NCBI RefSeq assembly: GCF_001638985.1
Contig: NW_017265134.1
Location: forward strand, 1,240,001 to 1,304,000
Direction of reading: 5' to 3'
Length of the DNA: 64,000 nt
Origin: Phycomyces blakesleeanus NRRL 1555(-)
Taxonomy: Eukaryota > Mucoromycota > Mucoromycetes > Mucorales > Phycomycetaceae
Positions 27,840-36,256 of this stretch are shown in pieces. Position 1 is the first letter of the stretch. Every line of letters starts with the position of its first letter. Both the position numbers and the translations under genes were made by a program. The notes beneath the pieces are model-generated. The model saw only the letters and a program-made list of their open reading frames with translations, did not search any database and was not told the origin of the DNA.

Positions 27840-29180
27840 ACGTATGTGTGTATATGCTATTTGCCTAGAAGAAGTAAGAGAGGGAAGAGAGAGGGGAAAG
27901 GGAAGGAAAGCTCGAAACAGACAGTGTAATATATAAAAATAACAATTGGGCTCTTAATGTTTGCTCTTTCTTTTTCTACATGTCATTGATACTTTTAGAC
28001 CACGACCATAAGAAAAAACTATAAAAAGAAAAAAAATAGACAACTTTTCATCGCCGACCGGGCCACATTTTGTAACACAGGTTACGACGGGGATCATTTC
28101 GATGCTGTCGTTGCGCGTGCACAGCGGTTGTTTACTGACCAAGCACGCTGTAGAAACCTTATGAAAGCACCTTTAACAGGAATATGATTCAAACTCAAAG
28201 GTATCAAGTAAGAGCAATTGGACCAACATCTTTATTTTATTTTTTCAACAGTGGATATTAAGTCTAGAATAACTGAGTTAAATAAGTAACAACCAACTTA
28301 AAGCCATGTTAACCATAAGGGCTCAAAGAGAAAAAAAAAAGAATTATTTTTATTATAGAAAACGAGACAATAACGGTACCCATTTTTGGTTTAGACGCCT
28401 ATGCCAATTACTTCCTTGGCCCAAAAGATCTAGTCTAATCACCAAGAGCTTTTTATATGACACACTTCTTGGTTATTACATAACCATCTAACGCTAAGCA
28501 CCAATTGCAGTGTATTAATTAGATATTCTAGAGCTACGGCCAAGGATAGGACCCTGATAGGCTAATAAAAGTTGTTTGAACATTTCTTGGCAAGTGTGAC
28601 ACTCCTTGTTCGTTGGCTTTCAACTGGGTATAGACTATTTTAGATTTTGGTCTTATTTAATGTTTGTTTGTTTTTTTTATTATATAAACATTACTCGAAC
28701 AAGCCAAAACCAAACGCGTCTGGGATCTGTTCTCATAGCGTATCTTGTAAACAAATGGAAATAGTAATCTTCTTAAAACTTCGCCTGAGAGAATAATAAT
28801 AATAATATGAATATGGTTTACTCGGGTCATTGAGACCGTTTTACCATTGTGGCTAGTAGTACAAAGCCCCTCTTTATTCGCCAGTTTCCCAGCTATCAAG
28901 AACTTGTTTCTAACAATATAAACTATAACCAAAAAGAGTTATCTGATATTATGAGGCTACTTGTATTATATGTATCCCTACACATGAAATACATAAAAGG
29001 ATCGAAATAATATAATGATATCTACATTCGAATAGCCTCGTATTTTGCACACACCATTACGGAGAATACTTTCTCATCTGTTGTATTTTTTTAACGTACA
29101 TACATTCTCAATATATGATTCAACATTTCTCTTCGTCTATGATAAGGCCTAAACCCGTGGACTGAATTCTTTTTTTTTCT
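27840..29180. other. Intergenic region, no gene recognised
   Basis: The upstream region of the Ser/Thr-rich protein and the 3' flank of the carrier gene. A less AT-rich patch at about 28040-28150 may be promoter. Small open frames here are AT-rich and unconvincing. Confidence 0.45.
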
Positions 29181-30487
29181 TTACTGAACTCCTGTCGCAA
29201 TGTCAAGCCATGCGCGAACCTTCTCGTAAACCATAAACGTCACAGCCTGCCCTGGTGCGACTCTTAGTAATCTCGGAGTCAACCCTTTGTAAAATGCTCT
29301 AAATCCTTCCTTGTAGAATATTTCACTTGTAACACTCTTGAGTTGATTCCATGCAGAGCCTTTTGCATTTGATTTCTGGATACGTGTTTTTATAGTATCG
29401 ATTGGTGCATTTGATAGGGGACCTAATTTCAAAGCAAAACAAAGTCAATAATTTAATTAATACCTTGATGCACCCAAGAATTAAAAAGAAAACAAGATTA
29501 CCCATTGCGCCAGAAACGCCACCGAGAATCAAATGTTGGTAAGAAGGAAGTTCGTCCAATCCTTGGAGTCGCTTTGCGTACTTCTTCATTTCTTGGTACG
29601 CCGTAAAATTGGCTGCCTGATTGGTAGCTATATTTTATAAAATAGAATGTGAGTTATATATATATATATATATATATGATTTATTTAGAGTATAATTACC
29701 TTGTCTTAAAGCTGTTAATCCAACTCCTTTGTATAAGGCACGGAAACCCTCTTCTCGTACAATTGTAAATGCAGCATGAGGAGCATTACGATATTTTGGG
29801 ATATCCATAGGATCAGCCATAGAATGTCTCTGAGCCTGCATTTGTATAATAGAGGTAATGATAAGAAAATAATACTTTTCTTTGGTGCAAGTATTTTCAT
29901 ACCTGTAGTCGAATCTTGATCAGATCCATTGGTCCAACTACAACAACTGCTTCAGTAGTTCCTGCAGCAAGACCGGCTATTATATACGTATATAACAAGA
30001 GCTTTTATTATTACGCGAATCCAAAAAAAAGGCGTCTTTGGTGCAACAAGGCGCCTCTGTTTTCCTTTAACTTGCCAAAAAATACGGCAGTTGTGCTGAC
30101 GTTTCCAGTAGAGTCAGCCAGCCAAGACTTGTAAAGCTCAAAGGAACTGAATCTAATAGCCATCTTGGGGACAATGCCAGAAACGACAGCACCAAGACCC
30201 TTGTAGAGACCCCAGAAAGACTCGTTCTTAACTATCTTCAGGCCTACGCCAAAGAACCCCAGGCGCTTTCCCTTTGAAGTCTCAGAAGCGAATGAGTATC
30301 ATGCCCAAAGTCGTGTCTTTTATTTTTTATAACGTACCGCTGCATTTCTGGGTGTAGTCTTGGCAAGCTGCATCCGAACCTTGATTGTATCAAGTGGATG
30401 GCAAGTGCAAGCTTCGATCAGACCAGCTGCTCCACCGGCAACCAAGTGAGTAAGAAGAGGCGTCTTTTTCTTGGGGTCTTTACTCAT
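29181..30487 (-). CDS. Mitochondrial succinate/fumarate carrier (Sfc1/Acr1-like)
   Basis: Six exons (30487-30338, 30280-30076, 29976-29903, 29835-29700, 29627-29502, 29422-29181) give 310 residues, the normal carrier length. All three mitochondrial carrier signatures are present: HPLDTIKVRMQ, GPMDLIKIRLQ and APIDTIKTRIQ. Sfc1-specific matches include LYKGLGAVVSGIVPKMAIRF, ATNQAANFTAY and RVAPGQAVTFMVYE. Family knowledge: inner-membrane exchange of cytosolic succinate for matrix fumarate, needed for gluconeogenesis from C2 compounds via the glyoxylate cycle. The intron after exon 2 appears to use a GC donor (GCAAGT), because only that choice restores VFFAGLAAG as in yeast Sfc1. A MULE transposon sits about 380 bp upstream of the start. 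Confidence 0.92.
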
Positions 30488-30860
30488 CAAGGAAAATAAG
30501 AAAGTGCGAGTGAAAGAGAAAAGGGATGAGTATACAGGATATTTACTGGATTATAAGCTCATTCGTCCCCCCCACCCCCTTCCCATCCCCCTTTCTCTTT
30601 TGGAATTGTTCGTTGCTTAAACCCCGCAAATTTTTCTTCATAAAGTACATATTTATATATTTATGGGACCTAGCCTCAAAATAGTAGATCAATGACGATT
30701 TATAAAGCTTATATACACAAAAAAAAACAAAGCAAAACATCACAATATTGGTTTCAAATATCAATAAAATTTCTGAAAGTTGTGTGCAGTTTTCTATATG
30801 TATTTCTTTGTAAAGAAGTTGTTTAGAAACAAGAGTTTCATATTATCTGTCTGACATGAT
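30488..30860. promoter_or_regulatory. Upstream region of the succinate/fumarate carrier gene
   Basis: About 370 nt between the carrier start codon and the MULE target site. It should hold what remains of the native promoter. A C-rich tract at 30566-30597 lies nearest the gene. No defined factor site was recognised. Confidence 0.4.
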
Positions 30861-30870
30861 ATTTCTTATC
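30861..30870. repeat. Target site duplication, left copy (MULE)
   Basis: ATTTCTTATC, identical to 36247-36256. A 9-10 bp duplication is the hallmark of Mutator-type insertion. Confidence 0.9.
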
Positions 30871-30926
30871 AGCTATTATTCGGGCCCGACGCTTTTCCTC
30901 TCGGGCACGACGTTTCTATAGAGTAC
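30871..30926. repeat. Left terminal inverted repeat of the MULE
   Basis: Core ATTATTCGGGCCCGACGC followed by TTTTCCTCTCGGGCACGACG. Matches the inverse of 36191-36246 with a few substitutions and one indel near the tip. It contains two related CGACG(C/T)TT cores. Confidence 0.9.
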
Positions 30927-31222
30927 TAAAAATATTCTAAACACCGATTTTAATTGTGTACCGGACTCCTGAAAAGTGACTATGGTCCGGCCTTCAATGG
31001 TAACAGAGTACCTGAAAGCAAAAAAAAGTTGTGTCCTGAAGAAATTAGTGAAAGACCCGTTATAAAACCTTCTTTTCTTTTATATACTCATCTTGTAAGA
31101 ATTAGACATCTTTTACATAATATAGTGTTTTTATCAGAAGAAACAAGAGTGCTACTTCTATCATTACAAATTAGTATTTGTAAAAACGATGTTAACAATC
31201 GCTCAATAGAAATCACTTCAAC
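30927..31222 (+). other. MULE leader with a long ATG-less open frame
   Basis: The 300 bp between the left end and the transposase ATG. One plus-strand frame stays open for about 90 codons without an ATG (for example GPAFNGNRVPESKKKLCPEE) and ends at a TGA overlapping the transposase start (31223-31226). It could be a captured host-gene fragment, an unrecognised 5' exon or chance. Promoter and 5' UTR functions are expected here. Confidence 0.35.
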
Positions 31223-34200
31223 ATGAATACTATCAATAAAGAATCAATTTTTATCGACGGAAATGAATATTATCCCGTTCAACAAGACTTTCCCACTACA
31301 CCAGTCAATGGCTATGCCAACATGACTGTGGCTATTTCTAAGATGCAGGAGTATGCACTTGCTAACAACTTCACTCTTGCAACTAAAGACCGTAAACCAA
31401 CCCGGGTTTACTTAAAGTGCGCCAGGGGTGGTCACTATAGAAACACCCATAAACTTGAAGACTGCGATCGCGTAAAAATCCGCCCTAGTTCGAAAACCGG
31501 ATGTCCTTACATGATAAAGCTATCTTACAAGAAAGGAATCAAAGGATATCTTCCCTTGAAAGCTTCTAGTGAAATGGAGAGTTATCACAATCATCCTCTT
31601 GATGACAAATGCTTGGAATCGACTCTGAAAGGCAGATTGTCGAGAGTTACTGCCGAAGACGCCAAGCAGATATCTAAACTTGTTGAGACAAAGGCCAAGA
31701 CTCGTGAGATCCAAAGGGCTATCACAGACGAAAAAGACGATGGTCATAAGCTGTACGTTAGCGATATCAACAATATCAAGGCTGCCTTTGCTCGAGTTTC
31801 TGCCCCTGTTGCCCAGAATGCGGGTACTGGACTTGTTAAGATGATGGAAGCAAAAGGTTACCAGGTGCATTATGATGTAAACGGGGACAATTCGCTGGAG
31901 AGGGTATTTTTTACCAATCAGAAGATGATGGAGAGAGCTCGTCGCTTCTCAGAAGTTATGGTGGTAGATGCTACATATTCTACCAATAACTTGTCAATGC
32001 CGCTGATTTGCGTGGAAGGTATCCACAACCTCGGAGGAGAAACCCTCAAATCGTTTCCCATTGCCTTTGCCTGGGTCTCTAACGAGCAGCAAGGCACATA
32101 TCTTTGGTTCCTCCAGCAACTCAAGGCACTTGTTTTTGAAGACAAGGCTCTTAGCACAGTTTTTGTGACAGACAAGTGTGCTGCACTTATGAACGCTCTT
32201 GATGTTGTGTTTCCGAACAACAGCAAGCTGCTTTGTTACTGGCACATGCTGAATAGTGTGGAAAAGGCTTTTTCGGGAAAAGTTGGCTCGGTACAAAAAA
32301 AGGAAGAGCTGACGGGATATATATCCAATATGATCCATAGCAAAAGTAAGAAGGAGTTTGACTGGGCGCTGAATAAGTTCAACGCTGTATCTGCTGGTTC
32401 CGAAGTAGAAAACGGCAATGTGAAAGCGCCAGTCTCGGCATATTTTCATGACAGGTGGATTACATGCCAAGAGAAGTGGGCAGGTTATCTTACTCAGAAG
32501 ATAATGCATTTTGGATGCACAACATCTCAAAGAGTGGAAAGTGCCCATCAAGCCTTAAAGAGAGGTATATCTGCAATAGCTTCTCTGGATCTCGCCTTTG
32601 AAAATATTTCAAGATATATCGAGAGGCTTGAGAGAGACTTCCGGAATGTGGAGATCAGGGAATCTACCACGGTTGACCCTCTTGTTGGACGAAACAAGCT
32701 TTTGTCTAGACTGCTCATGAAGGTCTCAAAGCGAGCTTTACTGGTAATAGACCAAGAGGTTCGACTGAAATGTGAAAGCAGTATTGTTTGTGAATGCATG
32801 AACAAGCTCCAGTATGGTCTACCTTGTCGCCATTCTTTGCCTGCTGGAAGGGATATCTATATTTCTGATATCCCTGAAAGGTGGGTTATTGATCCTCGTA
32901 ATGTAAAGCCAAGGGACAACACTTATCGGGAAAACTTCCAGCTTGAGGAAAGACCAGAGGTGTGGATGGAGGAAGTAATTAAACTCGAGTCACTGTTTCG
33001 GTCCTGTGAGGGCAGCCAGCAAGTGGCTAACCTCCTGAATAAGATCAAGAAGGTCACTTCTGAATTCGAAGGCAAAACTGGGCACCCTTCGATTAACTTT
33101 CAAGCCCCAGAAAAAATTAAATATCCTGGCAGAAGAAAGGGTGGTGCACGTCCCAAATACCTTCCCAAAGACTTTGGTCGGGCAAACTGGAGGAAGATCA
33201 GTGTTTCGTCTGGTCATGTAAGATAAAAAAAAATAACATAACAAAGTACTAATATGTATCTTGAAATACTAGGCTGGCCTTAAGGCAATGGTTAGACTGA
33301 GAGCTAAAATGAGGGAGGGAAAGCCTGCAGCTACACAAAAAACAAAAAACAAAAAACAAAACAAAAACAAACAAGAGCCTCTCGACCCAGGTAAGATGTG
33401 TTCTTATTTTACAATGTAATTGAATCTATGAGAAAGGATTCCCATCTTATACTTTCATGTTTTTTTAGTCGATGCTACCAAAAACAAAATAAAACAAATA
33501 AAGCAAGAGCCTCTTGACCCTGGTAAGATGTGTTTTTATTTTACTTTAATTGAATTTATGTGGAAGGATGTCGTCTTACACGAATATGCTTTTTAGTCGA
33601 TGCCACCAAAAATAAAACAACAAAAATAAAACAAGAGCCTCTCGACCCAGGTAATATGCTTTCTTATTTTACAGTGTAATTGAATCCATAAAGAGAACTA
33701 TCGTCTTATACTTATATACTTTTTAGTCGATGCCCCCCAAAAAAATGGGTTCAAAAGACCCGCCACCGCCTTAGAAGATTACCAGTATGATAATCGCACC
33801 TCTGTTGGCAAGAGGGTCAAATTCCAGCCCGGTTTTCCTGTCTCTCATGAGATAATCGATGATGTCAAGGGTGGGTTTAGCCCTACTGCTGACGGATGGT
33901 GTGGTTTTCGGGTCCTTGCCCACTTGATCTACAAAGATCAAAATAAGTTTTCACTTGTAAAAAGGGATATGCTAGCCGCCCTGCCGAAATACAAAACATT
34001 GTACACAAATACCTTTGGCACTGACACAAGCCAACTAGAAAAAATCATTCAACATGGCTCTCAACTCGATTATAGCAACACCAGCAACACCAACACCAAC
34101 TTCATCCCAGTATGTTCAGACGCCAGTATGTGGTTTAACACACCCGACTGTGCTCAACTAGCTGCGGACACATATACACGACCAGTCTGCGTCTACTCAG

Positions 34201-34514
34201 ACAACCCCAACACCCCCTCAACAACCTTTCTCCCATTCGCCCTTCCCAACAACAAAACCAAACAACGACAACCTCTGATTTTTAATCATGTTAACAGTAA
34301 TCACTGGACAACAGTTGACCTTTCCCGTAATATCTCTAGAAAATGGCCAACCGTTCCTGAATTATTTTTTTTAGGTTGTGCCAGAAATAAGATTGATGAT
34401 AACTTTGATACTTACTGGAATAAGTTCAAAGAATTTAACAAGCATGATCGCCGAAATGCCATGCTCTCTCTCCATTCTGATCTAGATCAACCAATTGATC
34501 TTACTCCAAAATAA
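31223..34514 (+). CDS. MULE transposase fused to a C-terminal OTU-like cysteine protease
   Basis: Five exons (31223-33217, 33273-33390, 33469-33522, 33597-33650, 33727-34514) join in one frame to 1002 residues. Residues 30-130 form a FAR1/WRKY-GCM1-like zinc domain (Cys66, Cys81, Cys94, and YHNHP at 121-125). Residues 240-450 are the MULE DDE core, with candidate acids D249 (VVDATY), D317 (VTDKCAALMNAL) and E439 (SQRVESAHQALK), plus the CYWH motif at 338-341. A SWIM finger follows (C523-x-C525, C535-x-H537). Residues 666-740 are a lysine-rich linker with three KQEPLDP repeats. The C-terminus has DGWCGFRVLAHLI (Cys799) and HVNSNHWTTVDL (His933), the Cys and His motifs of OTU-type deubiquitinases. 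A short tail follows. Family knowledge: FAR1-type MULE transposases bind terminal repeats and cut and paste. The role of the OTU module is inference, perhaps ubiquitin removal from transposase or host chromatin. Confidence 0.88.
33273..33726 (+). repeat. Tandemly duplicated exon-intron units within the MULE transposase gene
   Basis: Three copies of a 128-132 bp unit, each made of the end of an exon (AAGCAAGAGCCTCT-type, coding KQEPLDP) and its following intron. Exon ends fall at 33390, 33522 and 33650, and exon starts at 33469, 33597 and 33727. Exons 3 and 4 are both exactly 54 nt and begin TCGATGC. Each intron keeps its own donor (GTAAGA or GTAATA) and acceptor (TTTTTAG). The repeated protein is VDATKNK...IKQEPLDP. 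Confidence 0.88.
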
Positions 34515-35728
34515 TTTCTTTTCGATATTCTTTTCTATTTTATTACTCTTTTAATTATACTTTATTACTTATATTTTATTAGCTAGATCTTTTCTTATTT
34601 ATTTACTCATTTGCTTTTATATTTTATTAGCTAGACAATTTTTTTAAATCTTTATAAATCTTATCAATTTGTTTCTTTGCATCAACATAAGCTATCTATC
34701 ACTTGTGGGTTAAATGACTTTCCGCTCTGTTTTTTCCTAGAGATCATTCGTGGGAAGTACTTTACCCTTCGAGTTACACTTATAACCAGCGAATTAAAAA
34801 TCATAAATATCGGATGGTGTTACACAGATCGAGCCAAATTATCTTCGAATATGTTATATTATGCATTTGCATCTATTTATTTCATCAATTCAAGACTTGG
34901 CTCTCTATAACTTTGGATCCAAGTAGTTTATAGATATATGTATGTGTTCTAGGATTTTTAGTTGAATTGAAAGGGTCGATCATGAGAAAACTAACGTAAT
35001 ATCTCAAAAATTTGCTTTTTTTCAATAAAATAAAATATTGTATTTGCTTGTAGAATCACTTTTTTCTCATTTGTTTTCTATGAAACTTTTACTGGATTCA
35101 TATGTTATCTGAATATATGTAATTAAAAACTTTTTTTGGTCTTATATGAATATTTTTCATTTTTTGTATTTTTGATAAAATATCTCATGTACATGTTGCA
35201 AGGAAATGATAGAAAGAGTTTTTACAGAAGAAATAAAAATAAAAAATAAAAAGTAAAAACATGAATTTTGTAAAAATATATTAGCTTTACTGCTATGCAA
35301 ACTTTCTTAGGCATAAAAGGCTTCATTACCTTTATATCTATTACGAAAGTTTTTGAAAAAAATGCAAATTATATGGATTATAATCTTTTCCACTTAAATC
35401 ACATAAAATGAAAATATATGATTTATGTCTCAAGTTAAATCGTGAAAAAATGACTCATCAGCAACAGCAGGTATATGATTTGTTGACGGGAACCAAATAG
35501 ATCTTGTGTTTTTACAGAAATAGGTGTGGTCACAATTTTTATTTATTTATTTTATATTGTGCGTTTATTGCATGAGAACTACAATAAAAAAGACATTGCA
35601 TTGAATATGAACTCTTTAAAATGTAAAGTAAAATTCTAGAAACCTCTATAATTATACTTATAGAAGCTTTACTTTCAATAAGTAAAATATTGCATCAACA
35701 GTTTTCTTGAACACAATTATTCTATCGC
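34515..35728. other. Non-coding right half of the MULE
   Basis: About 1.2 kb, very AT-rich, with a TATTTTATTAGCTAGA-like duplication near 34570-34635. A 77-codon frame at 34677-34910 lacks any motif and was not called. Confidence 0.5.
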
Positions 35729-35926
35729 CACATTTAGGACACGACGTTATGCCTCTCGAGCACGACGTTTCTTACACAGTCACGTTTGGGACATGACGTT
35801 TTGCCTCTCGAACACGACGTTTCTTACACAGTCACGTTTGGGACATGACGTTTTGCCTCTCGAACACGACGTTTCTTACACAGTCACGTTTGGGACACGA
35901 CGTTTTGCCTCTCGGGCACGACGTTT
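35729..35926. repeat. 52-bp subterminal tandem repeat array of the MULE
   Basis: Units start at 35729, 35781, 35833 and 35885, an exact 52-bp spacing; the last is 42 bp. Each unit has GGACAYGACGTTTTGCCTCT followed by CG(A/G)(A/G)CACGACGTTT, which is the inner part of the terminal inverted repeat. The middle two units are identical. Transposase-binding sites are the likely function by analogy with subterminal repeats of other DNA transposons. Confidence 0.9.
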
Positions 35927-36190
35927 ACAAATTGTATATTTTGTATATACTGCATAAAAAAAATAGAAATTTTAATATGGTTACTACTTAAGTACACCTA
36001 GAAATTCCGTTATATTAAATGAAGATGTACCTTATTCATGAATTAAATTATTTATATTTTGATAGATTGATTTTACTCATATAAACTACTTTGGGTGGTT
36101 AGGGACCAGATAAAATTGCTGGATGCCGGACAACAAATCACTTTTTATGAGGCCGGTAAATGGTGAAAGGCGGAGATTCAATAAACGTAG

Positions 36191-36246
36191 TGCTCCAGAG
36201 AAACGTCGTGCCCGAGAGGAAAAGTGTCTGGCCCGAATAATTAGCG
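36191..36246. repeat. Right terminal inverted repeat of the MULE
   Basis: Contains AAACGTCGTGCCCGAGAGGA then GGCCCGAATAATTAGCG, the inverse of the left end. Confidence 0.9.
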
Positions 36247-36256
36247 ATTTCTTATC
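36247..36256. repeat. Target site duplication, right copy (MULE)
   Basis: ATTTCTTATC, identical to 30861-30870. Confidence 0.9.

Follow-up and report, generated by a model that had tools for sequence, protein, structure and literature searches.

An intron-containing Mutator-like element of Phycomyces blakesleeanus predicted to encode a transposase fused to a divergent OTU-like cysteine protease module

The window analysed here is a stretch of 64,000 nucleotides (nt) of Phycomyces blakesleeanus NRRL 1555(-) (assembly GCF_001638985.1, contig NW_017265134.1, positions 1,240,001 to 1,304,000 of the forward strand), and it contains a Mutator-like element (MULE) at 30871-36245. This element is predicted to encode a single protein made up of a MULE transposase, a linker of duplicated exons and a divergent OTU-like cysteine protease module, in this order. 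Comparison of sequences established the fused frame, its recurrence across a MULE lineage, the conservation of the Cys and His motifs and purifying selection. Judged from its family and motifs, the module is probably a catalytically active deubiquitinase. It is a further and less certain step to conclude that it acts in cis and protects the transposase or the complex of the transposase with DNA. To the reading as a whole, one fused protein whose module is a deubiquitinase that protects the transposase complex in cis, we assign a probability of roughly 45%.

The five exons of the gene, all on the forward strand, splice into 3009 nt in a single frame, equivalent to 1002 amino acids and a stop codon, and each of the four introns (55, 78, 74 and 76 nt) starts with GT and ends with AG. 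An earlier note on this DNA had proposed such an unbroken frame after removal of four introns, and the residues it had named (D249, D317, E439, Cys799 and His933) are present at these positions of the spliced product. Exon 1 (31223-33217) carries the transposase with its DDE core (D249, D317, E439), and the 1002-residue protein matches the Pfam MULE domain PF10551 with 74.8 bits (cut-off 27.6, E 7.7e-21). The FAR1-like zinc domain described in the note is weak, reaching 18.1 bits where the cut-off is 28.1. The SWIM finger is present as a CxC..CxH pattern from residue 523 (CECMNKLQYGLPCRH), but Pfam SWIM returned no match, and no ULP1 family was found among the Pfam matches of the protein at E ≤ 1. 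Splicing and motif comparison define exon 2 (33273-33390), a basic linker that ends in KQEPLDP. Exons 3 (33469-33522) and 4 (33597-33650) are tandemly duplicated, 54 nt each, and encode IKQEPLDP. Exon 5 (33727-34514), assigned from splicing, relatives, profiles and motifs, encodes the OTU-like module, with Cys799 in DGWC, His933 in NHW and the C-terminal tail PIDLTPK. In both the window family and a second family (L041), no Met precedes the Cys within the open frame of exon 5; the module therefore depends on the upstream exons. The end of the transposase frame is linked to the module in the predicted public gene models P0002-P0005 and P0023, and P0002, a public protein of the same strain, contains the exon-5 protein sequence without a difference.

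The joining of MULE and module is lineage-wide and not a single-copy accident. Among the MULE matches extending as far as the 3' end of exon 1, in the window family and relatives down to about 35-40% identity, 51 of 52 are followed on the same strand by the module, at a distance of 237-795 bp. Taking 150 of the 166 PF10551 matches, with each hit rather than each element as the unit, we found the module within 5 kb of 105, compared with 1 in a strand-flipped control. The remaining 45 lacked a module within this distance, and 36 of these scored below 50 bits; conversely, 15 of 124 module matches had no listed MULE upstream. At least three families carry the module: that of the window, the L041 family (about 40% identical) and a multi-intron family with a classical ADGNCGYRAIA box, represented by L043 (PF10551 at 6.7e-8), L042 and L044. 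Three protein searches, which reach only relatives sharing 5-residue words, gave 1, 20 and 5 matches, all from Phycomyces (P0013 being from P. nitens). MULE matches free of the module within 5 kb include C22:456423, C13:70761 and C2:3678102, and most matches of this kind score low; they possibly represent other MULE clades or domesticated genes.

The assignment of the module to the OTU proteases rests on relatives, profile searches of Protein Data Bank (PDB) sequences and conserved motifs. A profile built from the window and 8 of 19 scanned loci (A5) gave only five matches to PDB sequences at E < 1: two to OTUD5 (best E 1.9e-5), one to OTUD1 and two to entries named RNA-dependent RNA polymerase. 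One of the latter is 6dx5 (E 1.8e-4), which we take to be a viral OTU, and the other has the same sequence as 6dx1, which is titled viral OTU protease. Seven of the nine sequences in A5 are of the DGNC type, and for two of its eight loci (L056, L059) no upstream MULE is listed; left out were three loci without the box by pattern, L069, a second-family relative that has lost the Cys, and others that were redundant or incomplete. With a seven-sequence profile (A1), OTUD5 was matched at 3.3e-5 with both the Cys and the His regions aligned, and the two weakest matches listed (E 0.63 and 0.97) were not OTU by name. The alignment of nine sequences (the window and eight chosen open frames) shows no variation in DGxCGxR or in the His; the second family shares the DGWC box of the window, and the other seven sequences have DGNC. 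Among 30 copies, the Cys box was found in 29 and NHW in 26. Modules of the third family match OTU or otubain (C65) models below the cut-off, and the source name of 11 of the 25 public relatives listed starts with "OTU domain". A scan with A5 detected no relative in viral contigs.

Several results weigh against this assignment. The window module alone has no Pfam OTU match, and the modules of its relatives reach 11.6-18.4 bits, below the curated cut-offs of PF02338 (23.3) and PF10275 (24.3). AlphaFold models of the window's exon-5 product, built with 14 public relatives, and of P0024, built with 9 other rows, had a mean predicted local distance difference test score (pLDDT) of 41.6 and 36.9, too poor to judge an active site. 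Moreover, the second-family module (L041) matched no Pfam OTU model, and the three matches of a PF02338 search of the genome included none at an element module. Searched alone against PDB sequences, the window module matched OTUD5 at E 0.11, ranked under a retron reverse transcriptase at E 0.019. Foldseek, run on the low-confidence model of the window exon 5, pointed the other way and placed OTU-type deubiquitinases at ranks 1-14 (best E 0.042), including Ceg23 at ranks 7 and 10, presumably an OTU-type deubiquitinase as well. Because the module is homologous by profile but falls under the PF02338 threshold, we call it OTU-like. The OTU-type module proposed in the earlier note is supported by its Cys and His motifs and by profile matches to OTU proteins in the PDB, but neither Pfam OTU nor ULP1 recognized it. 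Overall, the observation made in that note was confirmed by our analysis of the sequence, and its interpretation was partly supported, namely for the single frame, the MULE transposase, the OTU-type motifs and the lineage-wide arrangement.

Rates of codon change were estimated from 20 of the 30 module loci, two of which were then dropped for stops; loci of the same subfamily are not independent of each other. In comparisons between subfamilies, the module had a ratio of nonsynonymous to synonymous divergence (dN/dS) of 0.17-0.19, with dS at 0.66-0.72 over 9 loci; for the transposase, 2 loci gave 0.10, with dS of about 2 near saturation. Near-identical copies, which differ by few changes, gave 0.17-0.59 for the module and 0.13-0.36 for the transposase. 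At the level of predicted codons, these values show that the module is under purifying selection. Sliding identity to the window, computed for 12 of the 30 loci, jumped abruptly in 8. Near 33600, four of them (L018, L019, L021, L023) climb from 60-75% to a level of 95-96%, and they remain at 90-100% up to about 35400; another four (L025, L028, L033, L040) rise from 52-54% to 93-95% near 33000. The module and the 3' part were therefore swapped between MULE lineages, and the arrangement was retained.

The linker between the two halves is built from a 128-bp exon-intron unit, tandemly duplicated at 33360-33743, whose exons encode (I)KQEPLDP. The number of EPLD-type motifs differs between copies (three in 24 of 30, two in 4 and one in 2), and 80 of the 82 motifs are followed by GT in the expected position. 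As exons 3 and 4 are each 54 nt long and phase-symmetric, and the motif number varies, exon number can change without loss of the frame. The second family has a similar linker arrangement (L041:1531-1904), in which KQEPLEE was read by eye. The 80-residue linker has 2 psi-KxE sites, a number reached by 0.66% of shuffles, and the whole protein has 4, reached by 3.6%. The SUMO consensus is not strictly kept, because the first motif reads NKQE, one subfamily has IEKE and the second family has EKQE or KKQE. The tail PIDLTPK (34494-34511) and its relatives in other copies (IIDLTHI, VDLTIT, TIDLTNIN) resemble SUMO-interacting motifs, and an IDLT-type pattern is present in 19 of 30 copies. It is conceivable, if improbable, that SUMO-consensus-like IKQEP lysines, the SUMO-interaction-like IDLT tail and the OTU deubiquitinase together form a self-contained counter-defence, which would block SUMO-targeted ubiquitin turnover of the transposase and be tuned by the number of linker exons.

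A transposase with an OTU-like, probably ubiquitin-removing domain suggests that the element counters ubiquitin tagging by the host. The module would take ubiquitin off the transposase or off proteins held at the transposon ends, and the deubiquitinated transposase complex would then persist long enough for cutting and reinsertion. A benefit from deubiquitinases has been argued for other transposons in PMC9741609, and its authors and those of PMC2836005 made similar proposals for other elements.

An active deubiquitinase could also be aimed at chromatin or DNA-repair factors at donor or target sites and not at the transposase, which we regard as somewhat unlikely. Such targets were put forward for the OTU and Ulp1 domains of Ginger1 (PMC2836005), and fusion to a DNA-binding transposase would bring the activity to DNA, but no sequence feature separates this alternative from protection in cis. 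It is less likely still that the module is no longer a protease and binds ubiquitin or a ubiquitin-like modifier, for example tethering the transposase to marked chromatin. The divergent sequence without a Pfam match, DGWC in place of DGNC in two families and the missing Cys of L069 would fit such a role, but the Cys, the His and the Asp and Arg flanking the Cys are invariant in the nine aligned sequences, and the Cys box persists in nearly all of the 30 copies.

Some RNA viruses use OTU-like proteases to process their polyproteins, and the repeated linker motif would be compatible with a protease that cuts the linker and frees the transposase. The varying number of linker repeats speaks against this, and we consider self-processing very improbable. 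The window's exon 1 has, in its later part, an RRKGG that resembles the tail of ubiquitin; this was examined as a cleavage site and rejected, as it is absent from the matching GRPK stretch of the other two families. Two separate products, with an unspliced exon 1 giving the transposase and an internal promoter driving the protease, are improbable as well. Retention of intron 1 would stop the transposase a few codons past the donor, and several public gene models begin late in exon 1; these models still splice out of the transposase frame, however, the exon-5 frame of two families offers no Met before the Cys, and the splice donor is kept after almost every linker motif. A fused deubiquitinase protecting the transposase complex in cis is the reading that we prefer.

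The element itself is apparently intact in the window. Its left (30871-30928, forward strand) and right (36188-36245, reverse strand) terminal inverted repeats (TIRs) were defined by pairing of the arms and by comparing ends between copies; the paired arms, 30875-30928 and 36188-36241, are 54 nt long and 91% complementary. Flanking them is a 10-bp target site duplication, ATTTCTTATC, at 30861-30870 and 36247-36256. A DDE domain above the Pfam cut-off, TIRs and a target duplication of this length (about 9-11 bp is expected) place the element among the MULEs. The window lies on contig C1 of the 53.5-Mb P. blakesleeanus assembly, in which both ends are known for four copies. Matching 10-bp duplications flank two of them, the window copy and a copy on C1 near 2745 kb, whose duplication (AAAAAAAAAC) is of low complexity; none was found at the other two, on C12 and on C1 near 309 kb. 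The C12 copy is 99.96% identical to the window over 5056 bases, and its movement or duplication was therefore recent. It then shows a 52-bp offset, as if it had one extra subterminal unit. Nearly four such 52-bp tandem repeats, which contain the TIR motif CACGACGTTT, were identified by repeat comparison at 35729-35926 and are possibly binding sites of the transposase. Adjoining the element is a reverse-strand gene (29180-30550), the translation of which, judged by eye, resembles mitochondrial carriers.

Kaonashi-type MULEs, which carry ULP1, likewise pair a Mutator-like element with a ubiquitin/SUMO-system protease; theirs is of the ULP1 class, unlike the Phycomyces protein, which has no ULP1 match. 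The earlier note had named them as precedent, and Ulp1 in Mutator elements is indeed stated in PMC2836005, but the Ginger1 transposases described there are closer. In these, the C-terminal end of the DDE transposase holds an OTU or Ulp1 cysteine protease, TIRs and introns are present, and the authors proposed a role of ubiquitin or SUMO in transposition (PMC2836005). The Ginger1 transposase, however, is Gypsy-integrase-like, whereas in Phycomyces it belongs to a MULE, which has a SWIM pattern and a 10-bp target duplication. Helentrons are likewise mobile elements with an OTU-like protease whose catalytic residues are conserved, but they are rolling-circle Rep/helicase elements, and some carry VTD deubiquitinases of another class (PMC4067079, PMC9741609, PMC6431247). 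Compared by host, target duplication, TIR and SWIM features, the element resembles MULE-Mucorales, which Dupeyron et al. (2019, PMC6446971) list as group 5 and which has a Mucoromycota host, a 10-bp target duplication, TIRs of about 40 bp, one open reading frame and SWIM. The words OTU, protease and peptidase do not occur in the main text of that paper (PMC6446971).

The pairing of a transposase with an OTU domain is thus known already from Ginger1, as is OTU in Helentrons; in agreement with the earlier note, we found no report of a MULE-OTU fusion among the open-licence papers that our searches listed. Fusions of domains in MULEs were reportedly described by Babu et al. in 2006, in work on WRKY-GCM1 and MULE zinc fingers. 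According to PMC9741609, the activity of transposon OTU domains had yet to be assayed as of 2022. Deubiquitinase-like domains recur in unrelated transposons, namely Ginger1, Helentrons and now MULEs. With its fused protein and its multiple, nearly identical copies, this element of a culturable fungus would make it possible to test directly if DNA transposition is limited by ubiquitin and if the element removes it in cis.
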